Assembly (NCBI GenBank): GCA_003220335.1
Contig: QHSB01000061.1
Span: 1-46,628, forward strand
Direction: 5' to 3'
DNA length: 46,628 nucleotides
From: Candidatus Rokuibacteriota bacterium
Lineage (GTDB): Bacteria > Methylomirabilota > Methylomirabilia > Rokubacteriales > CSP1-6
Shown: positions 6,055 to 40,475 of the stretch, piece by piece
Numbering within the stretch: position 1 is the stretch's first letter
Layout: each line of letters starts with the position of its first letter
Notes under the pieces: model-generated
Told to the model about the DNA's origin: nothing
The model's input: the letters and a program-made list of their open reading frames with translations, nothing else
The model's database searches: none
Program-made: the position numbers and the translations under genes

Positions 6055-7548
6055 ATGCGCCGAACCGTCGCCCCCGTCGTCCTCGTCGCGCTGCTCGCGC
6101 TCGCCGCCTCCTGGGGTCCCGTGGCTGCGCAGGCACCGCGCGCGCTCGTCGTGCAGGCCGCCACCGAGCCGCCCGGCCTCGACCTCACGGCCACCCCGGC
6201 CTCCGCGACGGCGGGCGTCGTCCTCTACAACGTCCAGGAGTGCCTGGTGAAGGTGGACTCGCACGGCAAGCTCGTGCCGTGGCTGGCCGAGCGCTGGCAC
6301 ACCGCCGACGACCGCAATTACACCTTCTTTCTGAAGAAGGGCGTGCGCTTCCACAACGGCCGCGAGCTGAAGGCCGCCGACGTGAAGTTCGTCATCGAGC
6401 GCGCGATGAACCCCGAGACGAAGCACCCGTATCCGCAGTACTACGCGGCCATCGGCGACATCATCGTGAAGGACGACTACACGATCACGTTCTCGCTCAA
6501 GACGCCGTCCGCGAACTTCCTGCTGAACCTGGCGCGGCAGGGCTCCGTCATCTACCCGCGCGAGGCGGTGGACACGCTGAAGTCGGCCCCGGTCGGCACC
6601 GGGCCGTTCACGCTGGCCGACTGGGTTCGCGGCGACAAGATCGTGCTCAAGCGCAACCCCGAGTACCACGTGAAGGGCCTGCCGAGACTCGACCAGGTGA
6701 CCTTCCGCTTCATCGCCGATCCCAACGCGGCGCTGGCCGCGCTGAAGGCCGGCGACATCGACGCCTCCCTGTTCGGCCTCGGCCCCGAGCACGTGGCCGA
6801 GCTGCGCAAGGATCCGCGCTTCGAGGTCACCGTCGGCGAGACGACCAACGACGTCATCATGGCCATGAACAACGGCAAGAAGCCGTTCAGCGACGTCCGC
6901 GTGCGCCGCGCCATCACGTACGGTATCAATCGGCCCGAGGTCGTGAAGCTCGCCATGTTCGGGCTGGGCCGCGTGATCGGCTCCAACGTGGATCCGCTCA
7001 ACCCGTACTTCGTGGACCTCGCCAGCGCGATGCCGTATGACCCCGCGCGGGCCAAGAAGCTCCTCGCCGAGGCCGGCTACGCGAACGGCTTCGAGGCCGT
7101 GCTCAAGGTCGCGCCGCAGTACTACTACACGGTGCGCTCGGGCGAGGTGATCGTCGAGCAGCTGGCGAAGATCGGCGTGCGCGTGAAGATCGAGCAGATC
7201 GAGTGGGGCCAGTGGCTGTCGCGCGTGTGGAAGGAAGCCGACTACGACCTGACCATCATCGGGCACGCCGAGGCGTGGGACATCGCCAACTACGCCAACC
7301 CGAAGTACTACTTCCGTTACGACAGCGCGAGCTTCCAGGATCTCTTCAAGAAGTCCGAGGTCACCCTCGACGACAAGGCGCGCCGCGACCTCTACGTCCA
7401 GATGCAGAAGATGCTCGTCGAGGACGCGCCGGCGGTCTTCCTCTTCATCCACCCGCGCCTGGTGGCGGCCAAGAAGGGCGTGACCGGGATCTGGAAGGAC
7501 CTGCCGATCCCGTCGGCGGACCTCTCGGAGGTCGGCTGGTCCAAGTAA
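6055..7548 (+). CDS. Periplasmic peptide-type ABC transporter substrate-binding protein (SBP_bac_5)
   Basis: 497 residues with an N-terminal signal peptide (MRRTVAPVVLVALLALAAS, cleavage probably near AQA). The family 5 solute-binding body follows: LAERWHTADDRNYTFFLKKG, the hallmark VRFHNGRELKAADVKFVIER region, VGTGPFTLADW and VRRAITYGINRPEV. It captures oligopeptides or similar solutes in the periplasm for the two permeases that follow directly. A ribosome binding site, CCGGAGGG, precedes ATG 6055. The ligand cannot be predicted; family members also carry dipeptides, nickel or opines. Confidence 0.9.
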   Translation: MRRTVAPVVLVALLALAASWGPVAAQAPRALVVQAATEPPGLDLTATPASATAGVVLYNVQECLVKVDSHGKLVPWLAERWHTADDRNYTFFLKKGVRFHNGRELKAADVKFVIERAMNPETKHPYPQYYAAIGDIIVKDDYTITFSLKTPSANFLLNLARQGSVIYPREAVDTLKSAPVGTGPFTLADWVRGDKIVLKRNPEYHVKGLPRLDQVTFRFIADPNAALAALKAGDIDASLFGLGPEHVAELRKDPRFEVTVGETTNDVIMAMNNGKKPFSDVRVRRAITYGINRPEVVKLAMFGLGRVIGSNVDPLNPYFVDLASAMPYDPARAKKLLAEAGYANGFEAVLKVAPQYYYTVRSGEVIVEQLAKIGVRVKIEQIEWGQWLSRVWKEADYDLTIIGHAEAWDIANYANPKYYFRYDSASFQDLFKKSEVTLDDKARRDLYVQMQKMLVEDAPAVFLFIHPRLVAAKKGVTGIWKDLPIPSADLSEVGWSK

Positions 7549-27424: not shown

Positions 27425-27431
27425 CGGGCGG

Positions 27432-29444
27432 ATGCGGATCCTCGTCACCGGGGTCACCGGGTTCGTCGGCAGCCATCTCGCCGAGTGGGCCCTCGCCCAG
27501 GGCGCCGCCGTCGTGGGCTCGGTCCGCTGGCGCAGCACGACCGAGCACATCGACCATCTCCGCGACCGCCTCACGCTCATCGGCGCGGACCTGCGTGACC
27601 TGTCGTCCGTCCGCTTGCTGCTGGAGCAGGCCCGCCCGGACTACATCGTCCACCTCGCGGCGCAGAGCTTCGTGGGCGCCTCCTGGGAGGCGCCGAGCGA
27701 GACGCTGCTCACCAACGCGATCAGCCAGATGAACCTGTTCGAGGCGATCCGCCAGCTCGGCGCGACGGCGACGCGCTTTCTCGTGATCGGCTCGAGCGAG
27801 GAGTACGGCCTCGTCTACCCCGACGAGCTGCCCATCCGCGAGACGAACCCGCTCCGCCCGCTGTCGCCGTACGCCGTGAGCAAGGTCACGCAGGATCTGA
27901 TGGGCTATCAATACTTCAAGAGCTATGGCCTCGACATCGTGCGCGCGCGCGCGTTCAATCACAGTGTCGGCCGTCACACGCCGGTGCTGTTGCGCGACGA
28001 CCGCACTGGACTGATCGATATCCGATATATCGGGGAGCTTCGCCGATATAAGCCGGCGGGGTATTTGAGCGGTCAACGCTTGGACGACGGAACGACGGTC
28101 TGGGACATGCGGCGCCACCCGCTGTCGGTATGGGCCGACGGCACGTGGTCCAAGATTGCGCATCTGTCTTGCCATTCGCTCCACTCGGACGATCGTGTGA
28201 TTCGACTTGTGGCGAGCGGCGGAATCGTCGAAGTCACGGGCGAGCATTCCGTCATGGCACCGGCTCAGGCTGGTCGCGTCGCGATCTCGGCGAGTCGCCT
28301 TGCGCTCGGGGATCGCGTGGCCATGGTCGCGATGCCGAGTAGCTCGGGAATGTGGGTGCACGAGGATGTCGCCTGGTTACTCGGTTTTTTTGTCGCGGAA
28401 GGATGTATCACCAATGGCAAGGTCAGAATCGACAATAAGGACCGAAAGGCGTTGGAACGGTGTGCTGAGATTTTCCTTCAGCATTTCGGCCTCGACACGT
28501 ATTTCGTCGAAGGTGCGGCTGACGTATGGCGCCTCACCATAAGGAAGCCTGAAGTATTCGCAGAGTGGTTGCGCCCTCAGGTCTATGCGAGCGACCGTAA
28601 CAAGCGCGTTCCGCGAAGTATCCTCAACGCGCAGACGGATGCAAAGCTCGCCTTCCTCCGCGGCTACAACGAGGGCGACGGATTGAAAGCCGGCCATGGT
28701 ATCGACGAGTTCAAAAGCTTCAAGACGAAGTCGCCGATTCTCGTCCTTGGTCTTTGCTACCTCGTGGCCAACACGACGCGGCAGCGTATGTGTCTGAATA
28801 CGGAAGTTCGCAGCGCCGGCACGTACTACCAGATGAATCTGAACTCGCCGATTGCGGGACACGAGGCCTGGGGGCGTCACCTGCAAGTTCCCGACGACGT
28901 CATCAAGAAGATCGAAGCAGTTCCATATGAAGGCGAAGTATGGGACTTCGAAACCGAGGACCACGTATTTCACGCGGGCCTCGGGGGAAACCTCGTGCAC
29001 AACACGGGACCCCCTCGGGGCGACGCCTTCGCCACGTCGTCGTTCGCGAAGCAGATCGCGGAGGCGGAGGCGGGGATTCGTGAGCCGTTCGTGAGCGTGG
29101 GCGATCTCAAGCCCACGCGGGACTTCTCCGACGTGCGCGACATCGTGCAGGGCTACTGGACGCTGCTCGAGCGGGGGACGGCGGGCGAGGTCTACAACCT
29201 CTGCTCCGGCGTCGACTGGTCGATCGAGCGCATGCTGAACTTTTTGATGTCGCAGTCCACGCTCGACCGCATCGAGATCCGGCCCGACCCCGCACGCCTC
29301 CGGCCGTCGGACGTCCCGGTGCTGCGCGGCAGCGCCGAGAAGATCCACCAGGCGGTCGGCTGGCGCCCCCGCATTCCGCTCGAGCAGACCTTGAGCGACC
29401 TCCTCGAATATTGGCGAGCGCAGATACGACGCCGGCCGCGGTAG
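27432..29444 (+). CDS. gmd: GDP-mannose 4,6-dehydratase / GDP-6-deoxy-mannose reductase-like precursor with intein
   Basis: The 670-residue precursor is two exteins (177 and 146 residues) around a 347-residue intein. Joined, the exteins form a 323-residue SDR: glycine loop TGVTGFVG (6-13), IGSSEEYG and catalytic Tyr147-x3-Lys151 in YAVSK. The substrate motif RAFNH/TGPPRG is interrupted exactly between His and Thr. It would turn GDP-mannose into GDP-4-keto-6-deoxymannose, the precursor of rhamnose or fucose units. Activity depends on protein splicing because the insertion lies in the nucleotide-sugar-binding loop. Rmd-type reductases share these motifs, so dehydratase versus reductase is not settled. 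Confidence 0.85.
   Translation: MRILVTGVTGFVGSHLAEWALAQGAAVVGSVRWRSTTEHIDHLRDRLTLIGADLRDLSSVRLLLEQARPDYIVHLAAQSFVGASWEAPSETLLTNAISQMNLFEAIRQLGATATRFLVIGSSEEYGLVYPDELPIRETNPLRPLSPYAVSKVTQDLMGYQYFKSYGLDIVRARAFNHSVGRHTPVLLRDDRTGLIDIRYIGELRRYKPAGYLSGQRLDDGTTVWDMRRHPLSVWADGTWSKIAHLSCHSLHSDDRVIRLVASGGIVEVTGEHSVMAPAQAGRVAISASRLALGDRVAMVAMPSSSGMWVHEDVAWLLGFFVAEGCITNGKVRIDNKDRKALERCAEIFLQHFGLDTYFVEGAADVWRLTIRKPEVFAEWLRPQVYASDRNKRVPRSILNAQTDAKLAFLRGYNEGDGLKAGHGIDEFKSFKTKSPILVLGLCYLVANTTRQRMCLNTEVRSAGTYYQMNLNSPIAGHEAWGRHLQVPDDVIKKIEAVPYEGEVWDFETEDHVFHAGLGGNLVHNTGPPRGDAFATSSFAKQIAEAEAGIREPFVSVGDLKPTRDFSDVRDIVQGYWTLLERGTAGEVYNLCSGVDWSIERMLNFLMSQSTLDRIEIRPDPARLRPSDVPVLRGSAEKIHQAVGWRPRIPLEQTLSDLLEYWRAQIRRRPR
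27963..29003 (+). mobile_element. Full-length intein with LAGLIDADG homing endonuclease
   Basis: In-frame element of 347 residues. Block A begins at Ser1 with HTPVLL (residues 5-10). Block B is VTGEHSV with Thr92 and His95. Endonuclease motif 1 is LLGFFVAEG (139-147) and motif 2 is LRGYNEGDG (232-240), each with an acidic catalytic residue (Glu145, Glu236). Block F is VWDFETEDHVFHAG (about 326-339) and block G ends LVHN with His346 and Asn347, followed by Thr+1. All residues for splicing are present: Ser1, block B His, penultimate His, terminal Asn, Thr nucleophile. The DNA is visibly less GC-rich than both exteins, in line with recent acquisition. Confidence 0.92.
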
Positions 29445-33197: not shown

Positions 33198-33769
33198 AGC
33201 GTCCGCCCGCCGGGCCGCGACTGGCCGCCGTGCGTCTGGTGGCGATGGACGTGGACGGCGTGCTCACCGACGGCGGCATCTGGTACACCGACCGCGGCGA
33301 GGAGCTCAAGCGCTTCGACGTGCGGGACGGCCAGGGCCTCGTGCTGCTCCGCGAGGCCGGCGTGATCACGGCCGTGATCACGCGCCGCCACTCGGAGATC
33401 GTCGAGCGCCGCGCGCGCGAGCTGGGCGTCGTCGAGGTCCACCAGGACGCGACCGACAAGAGCGCCGTGGTGCAGGGGATCCTGGCGCGGCACGGCGTGC
33501 GCGCGGCCGACGCGTGCTACGTGGGCGACGACGTCGGCGACCTCCCGGCGATGGCCCTCGTCGGCTTCCCCGTCGCCGTCGCCGACGCCCTCCCGGCCGT
33601 ACGAAAGTCGGCCGTCTACGTCACCCACGCCCGCGCCGGCTCCGGCGCCATCCGCGAACTCTGCGACCTGATTCTCTCCGCCCGCCTGAAGAATCCCCGC
33701 CATGTGCGCTCCGCCCGATCCGACAATCGCCAAGTGAAGGGGTGGGTGGGGGGCGGTGTGCCCCTCTGA
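33194..33769 (+). CDS. kdsC: KdsC-type HAD phosphatase (3-deoxy-octulosonate 8-phosphate phosphatase)
   Basis: 191 residues from GTG 33194, overlapping the ligase stop. VRLVAMDVDGVLTDGGIWYTD is the KdsC motif I with nucleophile Asp. KRFDVRDGQGLVLLREAGV, VITRRHSE (motif II) and YVGDDVGDLPAMALVGF (motif IV) are all in place, without a cap domain. It would release phosphate from KDO-8-P, or from a nonulosonate-9-phosphate. The last 20 or so residues form a low-complexity tail beyond the usual KdsC length. It ends the plus-strand glycan operon. Confidence 0.83.
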   Translation: MKRPPAGPRLAAVRLVAMDVDGVLTDGGIWYTDRGEELKRFDVRDGQGLVLLREAGVITAVITRRHSEIVERRARELGVVEVHQDATDKSAVVQGILARHGVRAADACYVGDDVGDLPAMALVGFPVAVADALPAVRKSAVYVTHARAGSGAIRELCDLILSARLKNPRHVRSARSDNRQVKGWVGGGVPL

Positions 33770-33887
33770 GACCCGTGTCTTCTGGGTATCGCGTCGGACC
33801 CGGCTCGGAATCATGGCTCGATGACAGGCGTAACGTAACGTCGATTTGCGTGGTCGAAGAGGGGCACGCCGCTCCCCGCCCATCCCG

Positions 33888-34589
33888 TTAATAGGCGATC
33901 GTCGGCTCCGTCGCCACGCGCACGCGCACGAAGTAGTCTTTGAACCGCTCGAGGTCATCCTGCGAGACCATGTCCGAGACGAGGAAGCACGCGACGTCGC
34001 CCTGCTTCCAGATCCACGTCACGAACCCGCTGTCGCGCGCGAGCATCGGACGGAAGCGATCGATCGCCACGCGGTCGCGCTCGACCATCGTGAAGCTGCG
34101 CTCGGCGGGCAGCACGATGTAGCTGACGAGGTGACCATCGACGTCGCGGTAGTGCACGGCGAGGCCGCGCTGGCGCGTGAGGTACACGGGCTCGGCGCTC
34201 ACCAGGCTCAGGCGGTCGTCGCCGGCGAAGGCCTGCCGGAGATCGATGCCCGTCTCCTGCGTCAGCCACGGCAGGCCGGCCGGCAGGATCTGCGGCTGGC
34301 GCGCGCCCCACATGAGCGCCCGCGAGTGCTCGTTGACGACGGCGCGTACGACCTGCTGCACGGGATCGGCGGGCACGATGCGCGGCAGGACGGGCAGCAT
34401 GAAGAGCACGAGGGCGAGCGCGGTGGCGGCGGCGGCCACGAGCGGGCCGAGCCACATCGGCCGTCGCGGACGGTCCGTCGCCTCCACGAGGCTGACGCGC
34501 AAGCGCGCCGGCGCCGTGTAGCGCGGTAGCTCGGACGCCAGGCGGCGTCCGAGCGCATCGTCGTCGGGACCCCTCAGCTCGTCGCTCAT
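33888..34589 (-). CDS. Membrane anti-sigma factor-like protein
   Basis: 233 residues. A short N-terminal cytoplasmic segment (LASELPRYTAPARLRVSLVE) is followed by one membrane helix (PLVAAAATALALVLFMLPVL) and a periplasmic domain ending in VRVATEPTIAY. Its ATG overlaps the sigma stop, the usual sigma/anti-sigma pairing. It lacks a clear HxxxCxxC zinc motif, so it is called from topology and position. The 5' part, up to 34153, is repeated in the inverted copy at 39094-39530. Confidence 0.65.
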   Translation of the reverse strand: MSDELRGPDDDALGRRLASELPRYTAPARLRVSLVEATDRPRRPMWLGPLVAAAATALALVLFMLPVLPRIVPADPVQQVVRAVVNEHSRALMWGARQPQILPAGLPWLTQETGIDLRQAFAGDDRLSLVSAEPVYLTRQRGLAVHYRDVDGHLVSYIVLPAERSFTMVERDRVAIDRFRPMLARDSGFVTWIWKQGDVACFLVSDMVSQDDLERFKDYFVRVRVATEPTIAY

Positions 34590-35098
34590 TTCTTCTCGTA
34601 GTCCTTCAGCAAACCGCGCAGCCGCTCCTTGGCGCGGAAGATCCGCGACTTCACGGTGCCGACCGGGCAGGCCATCACCCGGGCGACTTCCTCGAGCGGC
34701 ATTCCCTGGACTTCCGCGAGCAGCAGCACGGTGCGGAATTCCTCGGGCAGGTGTCGCATGGCACGTTCGAGGTCGGTGTGCGCCTCGAGGGCGCCTCCCT
34801 CATCCGTCGATGTGTCGTGGAACATCGGTACGTCCCAATCCGGGACACCGTCCTCGGCGATCGCCGTCTCACGCTCGCGTAGCCGGTAAAACGTGAGAAA
34901 CGTGTTCCTCAAGATTTGAAACATCCACGCTCGGAGGTGGGTTCCCGGCTGGAAGCGGTGCGAGAAGCGGAAGGCCCTCAGGTACGTTTCTTGAACAAGG
35001 TCGTCCGCTTCCGGCGGGTTGCGGGTCAGATACACGGCGAAGTTGTAGAGCGCGTCGAGGTGTTGGAGCGCCTGCCGCTGGAAGTCGGCGTCGGCCAC
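34586..35098 (-). CDS. ECF-type RNA polymerase sigma factor
   Basis: 170 residues from GTG 35098. Region 2 is ALYNFAVYLTRNPPEADDLV then QETYLRAFRFSHRFQPGTH and RAWMFQILRNTFLTFYR. Region 4 is LPEEFRTVLLLAEVQGMPLE with the helix-turn-helix EEVARVMACPVGTVKSRIFR. Regions 1 and 3 are absent, as in ECF sigmas. It would direct transcription of a stress or envelope regulon, held by the anti-sigma encoded next. A second intact copy lies at 38585-39097, identical in protein sequence. Three bases after the folK stop. Confidence 0.9.
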   Translation of the reverse strand: MADADFQRQALQHLDALYNFAVYLTRNPPEADDLVQETYLRAFRFSHRFQPGTHLRAWMFQILRNTFLTFYRLRERETAIAEDGVPDWDVPMFHDTSTDEGGALEAHTDLERAMRHLPEEFRTVLLLAEVQGMPLEEVARVMACPVGTVKSRIFRAKERLRGLLKDYEKK

Positions 35099-35101
35099 GC
35101 C

Positions 35102-35650
35102 TCAGTCCTCGAACCAGCGCGCCGGATAACCGCCGGCACGGACGGTGTGCTCGTCGGCGAGATCGGCGAGCAGCTCGCGCACGGTCGCGTAGAGCGTCGG
35201 ATGCTCGAGGTCGGGCGCGACGTCGGCCAGCGGCCGCAGCACGAACGCGCGCTCGGACAGCATCAGGTGCGGCACGTGCAGGTCGTCGGGTCCGCTGATC
35301 ACCTCGTCGCCGTAGAAGAGGATGTCGATGTCCAGCGTGCGCGCGGCGAAGCGTCGCGCCTCCGGCGTGCCCGGCGGCCGCACGCGGCCGAGGGCGTCCT
35401 CGATCGCCTGCAGCCGCCCGAGCAGCGCGCGCGGCGGCAGCGCGGTCTCGATCGCCACCACGCAGTTGAGATACCAGCGCCGCTCGCGTTCCGTGCGACC
35501 GGGCTCCTCCTCCCACGGCTCCGACTCGTAGAGCGGCGAGGCCTCGACCACGGCGATCTCCCCGCTCTCGCGCAGGCGGCGCACGGCCGAGCGCAGCAGG
35601 TCGAGCCGGTCGCCCAGGTTGCTGCCGAGGCCGAGATAGACGCGCGCCAT
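35102..35650 (-). CDS. folK: 2-amino-4-hydroxy-6-hydroxymethyldihydropteridine pyrophosphokinase, FolK
   Basis: 182 residues from ATG 35650. VYLGLGSNLGDR is the FolK N-terminal signature and RTLDIDILFYGDEV the metal/ATP-binding aspartate motif. LHVPHLMLSERAFVLRPLAD and the preceding WYLNCVVAIETALPP complete the family. It transfers pyrophosphate from ATP to the pterin for dihydropteroate synthesis. ATG overlaps the folB stop by one base. In the inverted copy residue Ser in HLMLSER is Ala. Confidence 0.92.
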   Translation of the reverse strand: MARVYLGLGSNLGDRLDLLRSAVRRLRESGEIAVVEASPLYESEPWEEEPGRTERERRWYLNCVVAIETALPPRALLGRLQAIEDALGRVRPPGTPEARRFAARTLDIDILFYGDEVISGPDDLHVPHLMLSERAFVLRPLADVAPDLEHPTLYATVRELLADLADEHTVRAGGYPARWFED

Positions 35651-36012
35651 CAGCGTCGCCGCGTCAGCTCGACCGACGGCGTGCCGACGAGCCCCTGCAG
35701 CGGCGGCGTCAGCTTGCGCACGCGCACCCGGACTTCCTCGGCGGGGAACTCCCGCAGCAGCGCCTGCGCGATCTGGCCGGCCAGCCGCTCGATGAGGTTC
35801 ACGCGGCCCTGCGTGCCGATCTCCACGATGCGGCGCGCGACCTGGCCGTAGTCGACGGCGCACGCGAGATCGTCCGAGACGGCGGCGCTCGTGAGATCCA
35901 GCGTGAGCTCTGCGTCCACCGAGAACCACACGCCCACCGTCTGCTCCGCGGTGGACACGCCGTGGTGGCCGTAGAAGCGGACGTCCTCGAGGCGCAGGCG
36001 ATCGGCCGTCAC
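35650..36012 (-). CDS. folB: Dihydroneopterin aldolase, FolB
   Basis: 120 residues from GTG 36012. LEDVRFYGHHGVSTAEQTVG is the FolB start with the catalytic region; VDYGQVARRIVEIGTQGR and NLIERLAGQIAQALL follow, with the conserved Glu. It cleaves dihydroneopterin to hydroxymethyl-dihydropterin and glycolaldehyde, directly before FolK. It shares GTGA with the FAH-family stop and one base with folK, so all are translated as one unit. An identical copy lies at 37671-38033. Confidence 0.92.
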   Translation of the reverse strand: MTADRLRLEDVRFYGHHGVSTAEQTVGVWFSVDAELTLDLTSAAVSDDLACAVDYGQVARRIVEIGTQGRVNLIERLAGQIAQALLREFPAEEVRVRVRKLTPPLQGLVGTPSVELTRRR

Positions 36013-36767
36013 AGCTTCACGACCGGATTCTTGAGCGAGCCGACGCCTTCGACGCGGACCTCGACGCGGTCACCGGGCTGAAGCCGGCCCGCGCCGGCGG
36101 GCGTGCCGGTGGCGATCACGTCGCCGGGCACGAGCGTCATCACCTCGGACACGCGGGCCACGAGGTCCTCGACGGGGAAGATGAGGTCCTTGGTCGAGCC
36201 CGACTGCCGCACGACGCCGTTGACGAGGCCCTCGACGCTGAGCGCGCTCGGATCGAGGTCGGTGGCGATGCACGGCCCGAGCGGACAGAACGAGTCGAAG
36301 CCCTTGGCGCGCTCGGTCCGGCCCTCGCGCACGCGCACGTCCCGGGCCGTGACGTCGTTCAGCGCAGTGTAGCCCAGCACGTATTCGCGGGCGCGCGCCG
36401 CCGGCACGTTGTGGCAGCGCCGCTTGATCACGATGGCCAGCTCGGCCTCGTGCTCGACGAACGTGCTCTGCGGCGGCAGCACGATCGGGTCGTCGGGGCC
36501 GATGACGGCGCTCGGCGGCTTGAGGGCGAGCACGGGCAGCTCGGGCAGCGGCTCGGCCAGCTCGGCGGCGCGCGCGCGGTAGTTGAGCCCGACCGCGATG
36601 ATCTTGGAGGGCGACACCGGCGCCAGCAGCACGACCTGGTGCAGCGAGTGGCGCTTGCGTCCGCGCCGGAACGCGCTCCACGGCGTGCCGGAATACTCCA
36701 GCACCGCCGGGCCCTCGAGCACGCCGTAGCGCGTGGCGTCGCCGGCGCGGAAGCGCACGATCAGCAT
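36009..36767 (-). CDS. Fumarylacetoacetate hydrolase (FAH) family protein
   Basis: 252 residues. KIIAVGLNYRARAAELAEPL opens the FAH domain. STFVEHEAELAIVIK holds the acidic metal ligands (E-x-E). GYTALNDVTARDVR and GFDSFCPLGPCIATDLD follow, then VMTLVPGDVIATGTPAGAG, the conserved end. Such two-thirds-length proteins act as hydrolases, isomerases or decarboxylases on 2-keto acid chains. The specific substrate is not evident. The ATG overlaps the dapB stop by one base. The C-terminal half from 36381 is within the inverted repeat. Confidence 0.88.
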   Translation of the reverse strand: MLIVRFRAGDATRYGVLEGPAVLEYSGTPWSAFRRGRKRHSLHQVVLLAPVSPSKIIAVGLNYRARAAELAEPLPELPVLALKPPSAVIGPDDPIVLPPQSTFVEHEAELAIVIKRRCHNVPAARAREYVLGYTALNDVTARDVRVREGRTERAKGFDSFCPLGPCIATDLDPSALSVEGLVNGVVRQSGSTKDLIFPVEDLVARVSEVMTLVPGDVIATGTPAGAGRLQPGDRVEVRVEGVGSLKNPVVKL

Positions 36768-37301
36768 CAGGCGATCCCGAGCACGTCGTGCATGGAGTAG
36801 AGACCGGGCCCGCGGCCGGCAACCCAGCGTACCGCGCGCAGCGCCCCGCGCGCGAACATGTCGCGACTGTGGGCCTTGTGCGTCAGCTCCAGGCGCTCGC
36901 CGAGCGTGCCGAAGGACACCGTGTGCTCGCCGACCACGTCGCCCGAGCGGAGTGACATCACGCCGATCTCCTTGCCCGGGCGCTCGCCGGGCAGACCCTG
37001 CCGGCCGTACACGCCGACCTGCTTGAGATCGCGGCCGAGGGCCCGGGCGACGATCTCGGCCATGTGCAGGGCGGTGCCGCTCGGCGCGTCCTTCTTGTAG
37101 CGGTGGTGCGTCTCGGTGATCTCGACGTCGTAGTCGTCGCCGAGGACCTTCGCCATCGTCGCGAGGAGGGAAAAGGCCAGGGTGACGGCCACCGACATGC
37201 TGGGCGCCACGAGGATGGCGGCCTGGCGTGCGAGCGCGGCCATCTCCTCGCGCTGCGCGCCGGAGAAGCCGGTGGTGCCGATGACGGCGCGCCCGCCCGC
37301 G
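36767..37301 (-). pseudogene. dapB: dapB, 3' fragment (dihydrodipicolinate reductase)
   Basis: About 177 residues of DapB. AVIGTTGFSGAQREEMAAL, ILVAPSMSVAVTLAFSLL, ETHHRYKKDAPSGTALHMAE (catalytic HH motif and SGTA) and GEHTVSFGTLGERLELTHKA are all conserved. It ends at the one-base overlap with the FAH gene. At 37301 the sequence breaks into the inverted copy. The N-terminal 37 residues are found 2.2 kb away at 39531-39642, and about 70 residues between are missing from the window. DapB reduces dihydrodipicolinate in lysine and peptidoglycan synthesis, so a complete copy should exist somewhere in the genome. Confidence 0.85.
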
Positions 37302-37674
37302 CGTGCTGGGCTACACTGCGCTGAACGACGTCACGGCCCGGGACGTGCGCGTGCGCGAGGGCCGGACCGAGCGCGCCAAGGGCTTCGACTCGTTCTGTCC
37401 GCTCGGGCCGTGCATCGCCACCGACCTCGATCCGAGCGCGCTCAGCGTCGAGGGCCTCGTCAACGGCGTCGTGCGGCAGTCGGGCTCGACCAAGGACCTC
37501 ATCTTCCCCGTCGAGGACCTCGTGGCCCGCGTGTCCGAGGTGATGACGCTCGTGCCCGGCGACGTGATCGCCACCGGCACGCCCGCCGGCGCGGGCCGGC
37601 TTCAGCCCGGTGACCGCGTCGAGGTCCGCGTCGAAGGCGTCGGCTCGCTCAAGAATCCGGTCGTGAAGCTGTGA
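37302..37674 (+). pseudogene. FAH-family gene, 3' fragment in the inverted copy
   Basis: The last 123 or so residues of the FAH protein, starting at LGYTALNDVTARDVR with a chance GTG at 37303 in frame, and ending identically to the intact gene (NPVVKL). The N-terminal half with the E-x-E metal motif is lacking, so it cannot make an active enzyme. It overlaps the following folB copy by GTGA. Confidence 0.88.
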
Positions 37675-38033
37675 CGGCCGATCGCCTGCGCCTCGAGGAC
37701 GTCCGCTTCTACGGCCACCACGGCGTGTCCACCGCGGAGCAGACGGTGGGCGTGTGGTTCTCGGTGGACGCAGAGCTCACGCTGGATCTCACGAGCGCCG
37801 CCGTCTCGGACGATCTCGCGTGCGCCGTCGACTACGGCCAGGTCGCGCGCCGCATCGTGGAGATCGGCACGCAGGGCCGCGTGAACCTCATCGAGCGGCT
37901 GGCCGGCCAGATCGCGCAGGCGCTGCTGCGGGAGTTCCCCGCCGAGGAAGTCCGGGTGCGCGTGCGCAAGCTGACGCCGCCGCTGCAGGGGCTCGTCGGC
38001 ACGCCGTCGGTCGAGCTGACGCGGCGACGCTGA
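37671..38033 (+). CDS. folB: FolB, second copy in the inverted arm
   Basis: 120 residues identical to the product of 35650-36012, with all its motifs (FYGHHGVSTAEQ, NLIERLAGQIAQALL). It keeps the same overlaps: GTGA with the FAH fragment and one base with folK. It would be functional if transcribed, but no promoter is seen upstream except whatever reads across the dapB junction. Its reality depends on whether the inverted repeat is real. Confidence 0.85.
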   Translation: MTADRLRLEDVRFYGHHGVSTAEQTVGVWFSVDAELTLDLTSAAVSDDLACAVDYGQVARRIVEIGTQGRVNLIERLAGQIAQALLREFPAEEVRVRVRKLTPPLQGLVGTPSVELTRRR

Positions 38034-38581
38034 TGGCGCGCGTCTATCTCGGCCTCGGCAGCAACCTGGGCGACCGGCTCGACCTGCTGCGCTCGGCCGT
38101 GCGCCGCCTGCGCGAGAGCGGGGAGATCGCCGTGGTCGAGGCCTCGCCGCTCTACGAGTCGGAGCCGTGGGAGGAGGAGCCCGGTCGCACGGAACGCGAG
38201 CGGCGCTGGTATCTCAACTGCGTGGTGGCGATCGAGACCGCGCTGCCGCCGCGCGCGCTGCTCGGGCGGCTGCAGGCGATCGAGGACGCCCTCGGCCGCG
38301 TGCGGCCGCCGGGCACGCCGGAGGCGCGACGCTTCGCCGCGCGCACGCTGGACATCGACATCCTCTTCTACGGCGACGAGGTGATCAGCGGACCCGACGA
38401 CCTGCACGTGCCGCACCTGATGCTGGCCGAGCGCGCGTTCGTGCTGCGGCCGCTGGCCGACGTCGCGCCCGACCTCGAGCATCCGACGCTCTACGCGACC
38501 GTGCGCGAGCTGCTCGCCGATCTCGCCGACGAGCACACCGTCCGTGCCGGCGGTTATCCGGCGCGCTGGTTCGAGGACTGA
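38033..38581 (+). CDS. folK: FolK, second copy in the inverted arm
   Basis: 182 residues, complete, differing from 35102-35650 only by Ala for Ser in HLMLAERAFVLRP (base 38426 G, against T on the coding strand of arm 1). The ATP/metal motif RTLDIDILFYGDE is intact. One base overlap with folB and a three-base gap to sigma are retained. The single replacement shows the arms are not a literal copy of the same molecule. Confidence 0.85.
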   Translation: MARVYLGLGSNLGDRLDLLRSAVRRLRESGEIAVVEASPLYESEPWEEEPGRTERERRWYLNCVVAIETALPPRALLGRLQAIEDALGRVRPPGTPEARRFAARTLDIDILFYGDEVISGPDDLHVPHLMLAERAFVLRPLADVAPDLEHPTLYATVRELLADLADEHTVRAGGYPARWFED

Positions 38582-38584
38582 GGC

Positions 38585-39097
38585 GTGGCCGACGCCGACT
38601 TCCAGCGGCAGGCGCTCCAACACCTCGACGCGCTCTACAACTTCGCCGTGTATCTGACCCGCAACCCGCCGGAAGCGGATGACCTTGTTCAAGAAACGTA
38701 CCTGAGGGCCTTCCGCTTCTCGCACCGCTTCCAGCCGGGAACCCACCTCCGAGCGTGGATGTTTCAAATCTTGAGGAACACGTTTCTCACGTTTTACCGG
38801 CTACGCGAGCGTGAGACGGCGATCGCCGAGGACGGTGTCCCGGATTGGGACGTACCGATGTTCCACGACACATCGACGGATGAGGGAGGCGCCCTCGAGG
38901 CGCACACCGACCTCGAACGTGCCATGCGACACCTGCCCGAGGAATTCCGCACCGTGCTGCTGCTCGCGGAAGTCCAGGGAATGCCGCTCGAGGAAGTCGC
39001 CCGGGTGATGGCCTGCCCGGTCGGCACCGTGAAGTCGCGGATCTTCCGCGCCAAGGAGCGGCTGCGCGGTTTGCTGAAGGACTACGAGAAGAAATGA
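38585..39097 (+). CDS. ECF sigma factor, second copy in the inverted arm
   Basis: 170 residues identical to the product of 34586-35098. One synonymous base differs (38680 T, GAT instead of GAC in EADDLVQ). Both regions 2 and 4 are complete. If real, the genome would have two convergent copies of this sigma gene, the second paired only with a truncated anti-sigma gene, which would unbalance the regulator. Confidence 0.85.
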   Translation: MADADFQRQALQHLDALYNFAVYLTRNPPEADDLVQETYLRAFRFSHRFQPGTHLRAWMFQILRNTFLTFYRLRERETAIAEDGVPDWDVPMFHDTSTDEGGALEAHTDLERAMRHLPEEFRTVLLLAEVQGMPLEEVARVMACPVGTVKSRIFRAKERLRGLLKDYEKK

Positions 39098-39648
39098 GCG
39101 ACGAGCTGAGGGGTCCCGACGACGATGCGCTCGGACGCCGCCTGGCGTCCGAGCTACCGCGCTACACGGCGCCGGCGCGCTTGCGCGTCAGCCTCGTGGA
39201 GGCGACGGACCGTCCGCGACGGCCGATGTGGCTCGGCCCGCTCGTGGCCGCCGCCGCCACCGCGCTCGCCCTCGTGCTCTTCATGCTGCCCGTCCTGCCG
39301 CGCATCGTGCCCGCCGATCCCGTGCAGCAGGTCGTACGCGCCGTCGTCAACGAGCACTCGCGGGCGCTCATGTGGGGCGCGCGCCAGCCGCAGATCCTGC
39401 CGGCCGGCCTGCCGTGGCTGACGCAGGAGACGGGCATCGATCTCCGGCAGGCCTTCGCCGGCGACGACCGCCTGAGCCTGGTGAGCGCCGAGCCCGTGTA
39501 CCTCACGCGCCAGCGCGGCCTCGCCGTGCAGCGCGACGATGCGCGAGCCCATGCGCCCGGCCGCGCCGCCGATCACTATATTTACCGCCGGGGCGCCTTC
39601 GCGGGACTCCGGCGCCGCGGCGGTCGGGCGAATGTCGGTCATCGGTGA
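39094..39648 (+). pseudogene. Anti-sigma gene, 5' fragment fused to foreign frame
   Basis: The first 145 residues, from MSDELRGPDDDALGRRL through the membrane helix to YLTRQRGLAV, equal the intact anti-sigma protein. At 39530 homology stops. The frame then reads through the antisense of dapB (QRDDARAHAPGRAADHY) to a stop at 39648. The periplasmic domain is lost. If expressed it would still carry the cytoplasmic and membrane parts. Confidence 0.85.
39531..39642 (-). pseudogene. dapB: dapB, 5' fragment
   Basis: From ATG 39642: MTDIRPTAAAPESREGAPAV, then NIVIGGAAGRMGSRIVA, the nucleotide-binding loop G-x-x-G-R-M-G of DapB. At 39530 it changes into antisense of the anti-sigma gene. The DapB core normally starts at about MVNIVIGG, so roughly 19 extra residues precede it here; these belong to a short tandem duplication. 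The rest of dapB is at 36767-37301. Confidence 0.8.
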
Positions 39649-39718
39649 ATTATCGTTACCGCCGGGGCGCCTTCGCGGGGCTCCGGCGCCGCGGCGGTTG
39701 GGCGAAAATTGGTCATCG
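39582..39718 (-). repeat. Tandem direct repeat of the dapB 5' end
   Basis: Two units, 39582-39644 and 39656-39718, offset by 74 bases, 63 bases each with five mismatches. On the minus strand the downstream unit begins dapB. The upstream unit encodes a 25-codon ORF (39716 to 39639) starting MTNFRPTAAAPEPREGAPAV. Its TGA overlaps the dapB ATG as ATGA. The small ORF may be a by-product of the duplication or a translated leader. Confidence 0.8.
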
Positions 39719-39738: not shown

Positions 39739-40475
39739 CTACTTCACGAGCCCGTACGGCTTGAGCACGCCGCGCAGCGTCTCGCGATTGGCGTCGCTCA
39801 TGCGGCACATCGGCAGCCGGAACTCCGGCTCGAGCATGCCCGCCATCGCCATCGCTTCCTTGATGGGGATGGGGTTGGTCTCGAGGAACGCCACCCGCGC
39901 CAGCGGGAAGAGCCGGTGATGCAGCTCGCGCGCGCGCTTCCAGTCGTTGTCGAGCGCGGCGTGCACCATGTCCGCGGTGTCCTTTTCACGCCGCGCACGT
40001 TGTGGCAGTCGCGGGCCAGCCGGGCCATGGTCACCGTCTCGACGTTGATCGCCGTGCGGCTCTGGATGTTGTAGACGACGATCGGGATGGCCACCGACTC
40101 CGCCACCGCGCGGAAGTGCCGGTAGAGGCCCTCCTGCGTCGGCTTGTTGTAGTACGGGTTCACGACGAGCGCGCCGTCGGCGCCCGCGCGCTCGGCGTGC
40201 CGGGTCAGGTCGAGCGCCTCCGCGGTGGCGTTCGAGCCGGTGCCCGCCAGGACCTTGATGCGCTTGCGCGCGGCCTGGACCACGACCTCGATGACGCGCT
40301 TGTGCTCGTCGTGCGAGAGCGTCGGCGACTCGCCGGTGGTGCCGCAGGGGACGAGCCCGTCGGTACCGTTGGCCACGTGCAGCTCGACCAGCTCGCGCAG
40401 CTTCGCCTCGTCCACCTTGCCGTTCCGGAACGGCGTTACCAGCGCGACGAACGAACCGGTGAAGATCGGGTTCAT
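39739..40475 (-). pseudogene. dapA: dapA (dihydrodipicolinate synthase) with internal deletion and frameshift
   Basis: The N-terminal 164 residues are intact: ALVTPFRNGK, GTTGESPTLSHDEH (Thr46/Thr47), VVNPYYNKPTQEGLY, catalytic Tyr135 in VVYN, and GVK with Schiff-base Lys164. Directly after this Lys (near 39983) the frame shifts. The sequence continues as ADMVHAALDNDWKRARELHH to the normal end KPYGLVK. About 50 residues following GVKEASG are absent. DapA condenses pyruvate and aspartate semialdehyde, so a living cell needs an intact copy. Overlaps the lysA stop by four bases. Confidence 0.85.

Follow-up and report, generated by a model that had tools for sequence, protein, structure and literature searches.

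In the 46,628-nucleotide stretch of DNA analysed here (the window), which is one entire contig, the dapB gene, which is required for making lysine and the cell wall, is split by an inverted copy of 2,229 bases of neighbouring sequence. We consider this duplication to be very probably artefactual, a product of the assembly or of the library from which this draft metagenome-assembled genome was obtained, and the true locus probably has the single-copy gene order of the relatives, lysA-dapA-dapB-FAH-folB-folK-sigma-antisigma. The earlier note on this DNA described the anatomy of the inverted duplication correctly but judged an artefact and a true rearrangement to be equally likely; the evidence now clearly favours the artefact, because dapA carries a second lesion, no other dapB was found among the contigs of at least 3 kb, and further duplications, one of them in ispH, occur in the same genome. 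A true rearrangement, all its forms taken together, appears unlikely.

Anatomy of the inverted duplication

The left arm (arm A, 34153..36381) occupies the native position on the plus strand and, with its genes on the minus strand, comprises the 5′ part of an anti-sigma-like gene, the gene of an ECF-type sigma factor, folK, folB and the 3′ part of a FAH-family gene. It is followed by a spacer (36382..37301), which was correctly given as 920 bases long and which holds the 5′ part of the FAH-family gene and the 3′ part of dapB, and then by arm B (37302..39530, minus strand), a copy of arm A lying inverted inside dapB. The two arms are reverse-complementary across 2,229 positions, as had been claimed, though the identity is not perfect (99.91%) and there are two mismatches, at 35003/38680 and 35257/38426. 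In each arm a single base departs from that of nearly all relatives, which fits diverged copies and strain variation alike. The duplication is far beyond chance, and no other repeats of at least 100 bp at 97% identity or higher were found in the window.

The gene coordinates confirmed that the arms end within genes: the outer end of arm A falls inside the complete copy of the anti-sigma-like gene (33888..34589, minus strand) and its inner end inside the complete copy of the FAH-family gene (36009..36767, minus strand). The additional complete copies of folB, folK and the sigma factor gene that the earlier note had described are present. No family match was obtained for the anti-sigma-like gene, which takes its name solely from its position beside the sigma factor.

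The 3′ part of dapB lies at 36767..37301 (minus strand; TIGR00036 positions 94-270) and its 5′ part at 39531..39642 (minus strand). Compared with dapB of the genus-mate G002, the gene lacks about 200-211 bp (67-70 codons), the range depending on how the bases shared at the right-hand junction are counted, and the splitting of the gene with a loss of about 70 codons was thereby confirmed. The gap is filled by arm B, and the contig contains no Ns there.

At the start of dapB, an imperfect 63-bp direct repeat (39582-39644 and 39656-39718) repeats the first ~60 bases of the gene ahead of its start. The same repeat was found in the genus-mate G001 (L061, 6040-6215) and is absent from G002. Because G001 also has it, it is older than the duplication and unrelated to it, and it was rejected as part of the event.

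Relatives and the probable native locus

The genome (5.5 Mb in 743 contigs, completeness 94.9%, contamination 7.11%) is evidently a metagenome assembly of Candidatus Rokubacteria affinity, and the closest named genomes are soil Candidatus Rokubacteria (Rokuibacteriota) metagenome-assembled genomes, including QHRU01000052.1. The low quality of the assembly is a further point in favour of an artefact. The DNA of two genus-mates is 90-92% (G002) and 84-86% (G001) identical to the right part of the window. Both have the gene order given above, with continuous dapA and dapB genes and one copy of each shared gene, so the expectation that a relative would provide a single-copy reference with an unbroken dapB was borne out twice. 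Because these genus-mates are single-copy with intact dapA and dapB, the duplicated arrangement is derived. None of the relatives has it. In 53 of 57 genomes of the same family, dapB scored above the family cut-off, nearly always at full length, and a clade-wide loss of dapB was therefore rejected.

The FAH-family gene downstream of dapB is a remnant in G002, and the contig of G001 stops within it. Remnants left by internal or terminal deletion were seen in several relatives (L060 around 7070-7217; also G010:C48, G015:C51 and G018:C130), as if the gene had been repeatedly lost. In another Rokubacteria genome, L143 (JACPCG010000069.1), the start of dapB at about 6800-6995 is swapped for unrelated sequence resembling a dispersed repeat.

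The two junctions

At the first junction, J1 (37301..37302), dapB passes into antisense FAH sequence; the surroundings are GC-rich, and the overlap is 2 nt (CG). At the second, J2 (39520..39531), dapB in sense direction is followed by the antisense of the anti-sigma-like gene, and about 11 nt are shared. This sequence, TGCACGGCGAG (11 nt), is common to the dapB of G002 and the anti-sigma strand, the overlap being judged from the relative's dapB, and the probability of such a match by chance is ~1e-6 at a fixed point and ~2e-5 with placement allowed. A 10-nt inverted GC-rich match, GCGCGCCCGC (37287-37296), sits 5 nt from J1. Neither a mobile element nor a long repeat was seen at the joins, and a transposase or mobile element was rejected as the cause, as the arms carry ordinary housekeeping genes only.

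Such junctions could have been left by a true and recent chromosomal rearrangement through template switching in the sampled population, which we regard as rather improbable. A replicating strand would have left dapB at J2 at the short inverted match for the opposite strand of the anti-sigma-like gene, copied 2.2 kb backwards and returned into dapB at J1, with the result that the inverted copy was inserted and ~200-211 bp were lost. The ~11 nt common to both sides of J2, the inverted match close to J1, the distance of less than 3.4 kb between both partners and the single derived base in each arm are all in its favour; however, the arrangement occurs in no relative. The junction matches themselves do not discriminate between the explanations, because natural template switching, amplification chimeras and false assembly overlaps all fit them.

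The structure resembles template-switch and tandem-inversion duplications (bacterial TID; replication-based inverted amplification, e.g. PMC4689423) in having an inverted copy beside its source and, possibly, short inverted matches at the joins. It differs from a TID in that a single inverted copy replaces sequence of an essential gene, whereas a TID is a triplication in which an intact copy is kept. Chimeras of multiple displacement amplification (MDA) offer a further comparison: according to Lasken and Stockwell (2007, PMC1855051), inversions make up 85% of them, and most of their junctions show complementarity of 2-21 nt. An inverted join, an intervening deletion, partners less than 10 kb apart and short complementarity at the joins are common to these chimeras and to our locus, although two linked junctions are required here, and an MDA step would have to be assumed for the sample.

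A second lesion in dapA and the diaminopimelate pathway

The dapA gene (39742..40475, minus strand), which adjoins dapB upstream, is also broken. Measured against G002, 151 bp are deleted internally, with a frameshift at the deletion site (39984/39985) and no Ns, and the family model matches at positions 2-159 and 209-284 in two different frames. The join is blunt, and it contains two A residues more than a simple slip at the shared GAAGG would have left. The lesion, of which the earlier note made no mention, is separate from that in dapB and falls within ~0.5 kb of it.

We searched the contigs of at least 3 kb for intact copies of the needed genes alongside the rearrangement, and found none: the broken dapB was the sole match to its family, and no alternative dapA scored above the cut-off. 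Other members of the dapA family scored far below it and were rejected as a replacement. Both dapF and murE are present elsewhere in the genome at full length, and the cell is therefore expected to synthesise diaminopimelate and to use it. Against a template switch in the sampled population it must thus be held that the sole dapB would have been destroyed, beside an independently broken dapA, while dapF and murE were kept. That a natural template switch in uncultured Rokubacteria inactivated dapB beside an inactive dapA, leaving a lineage reliant on its neighbours for diaminopimelate or its precursors, seems to us very improbable.

We can give almost no credence to a real rearrangement among several copies of the locus, in which an intact dapA-dapB was missed by the assembly and the duplication adds to the dosage of folB, folK and the sigma factor gene. 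A contig shorter than 3 kb could hide such an intact copy, and real tandem inversion duplications usually retain one. Nevertheless, the single-copy flanks on either side run straight into the rearranged segment, and dapA carries in addition its unrelated deletion.

Other duplications in the same assembly

We scanned 95 other contigs of this genome (816 kb, ~15% of the total) for near-identical local repeats of at least 250 bp and at least 97% identity, using as controls 1.23 Mb from other genomes, 237 kb of which came from other Rokubacteria. Four such duplications were found in this genome, compared with none in the controls. One is inverted (C210, 7238-7876), with 261-bp arms that are 100% identical and a 117-bp spacer, and lies across coding sequence. 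The other three are tandem: a 505-bp duplication on C207 repeats the 3′ end of a transporter-binding protein gene, one of 360 bp on C27 repeats the 3′ end of an aminotransferase gene, and on C19 (9531-10026) two copies of 256 bp, 98.4% identical, lie inside ispH. The probability that all four would land in this sample by chance, calculated from the base totals with the window left out, is ~0.025, and with so few events the control comparison is suggestive, not strong.

The content of the duplications is more telling than their number. The ispH gene, which is normally essential, has an internal in-frame repeat of ~80 residues, and in the relatives it is single and whole; the repeat on C19 is probably another assembly error. 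Comparable lesions on other contigs of the genome, including that in ispH, also speak against a true template switch at dapB. No internal lesion was seen in rpoB, which is in pieces on two contigs, and rpoC is split across contigs. For a single free-living organism, the combined lesions of dapA, dapB and ispH make little biological sense, but assembly error would readily account for them.

Other features of the window

At 33735-33890 lies a GC-rich repeat of ~150 nt that could fold into a long hairpin. G001 and G002 contain dozens of related matching copies; in this genome, 863 kb yielded four copies, and 789 kb sampled from non-Rokubacteria genomes yielded none. As a mediator of the duplication it was rejected, for it lies more than 260 bp beyond the left arm and at no junction. 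A GDP-mannose 4,6-dehydratase-like gene (27429-29444) holds an in-frame probable intein of 346 residues (27969-29006, plus strand), which starts with Ser and ends with His-Asn before Thr; LAGLIDADG_3 matched above the cut-off and Intein_splicing below it. G001, G002 and L143 lack this segment. Scans of the window for tRNA genes and Rfam families gave no matches.

Proposed origin of the duplication as a probable artefact

The GC-rich short segments absent from the contig (~200-211 bp of dapB and 151 bp of dapA) may not have been assembled, and the gaps may then have been wrongly closed. A contig with dapA and the start of dapB would have been falsely extended at J2 through the ~11 nt common to dapB and the opposite strand of the anti-sigma-like gene, whereby 2.2 kb of neighbouring sequence would have been copied backwards. 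The extended contig would then have been joined at J1, with almost no overlap, to the contig ending in dapB. A chimeric molecule from library amplification would be an alternative route to the same outcome. If the duplication is an artefact, variation among strains or errors of a polymerase would explain the two SNPs that distinguish the arms.

Some observations weigh against an artefact. A short-read assembler would have difficulty in placing two 2.2-kb arms of 99.9% identity in one contig, and the single derived base in each arm is as expected of diverged real copies. As neither join has a long exact overlap, and 11 nt is less than the usual k-mer sizes, real chimeric reads may be needed; the involvement of a chimeric amplified molecule may also be considered, because short reads rarely separate two near-identical arms of 2.2 kb.

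Chen et al. (2020, PMC7111523) described local assembly errors in metagenome assemblies, prominent with IDBA-UD, as well as identical sequence that had been artificially repeated. Our locus is similar to these local misassemblies and false gap closures in its broken conserved genes, its presumably artificial identical repeats and the occurrence of several cases in one draft genome. The published cases are unsupported joins, direct concatenations and unsupported local sequence (PMC7111523), whereas the inverted copy described here is 2.2 kb and longer than typical.

Should the rearrangement be real after all, it would show a template-switch rearrangement as it occurs in nature, and a free-living soil bacterium that is auxotrophic for diaminopimelate. 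As an artefact, it is of little biological interest and serves as a useful quality warning for the genome; a repeat scan combined with a check of conserved genes would be a simple flag for such errors. The species-representative genome would in that case contain genes that are falsely duplicated and others that are falsely missing, which would mislead inferences on pathways, copy number and gene essentiality.
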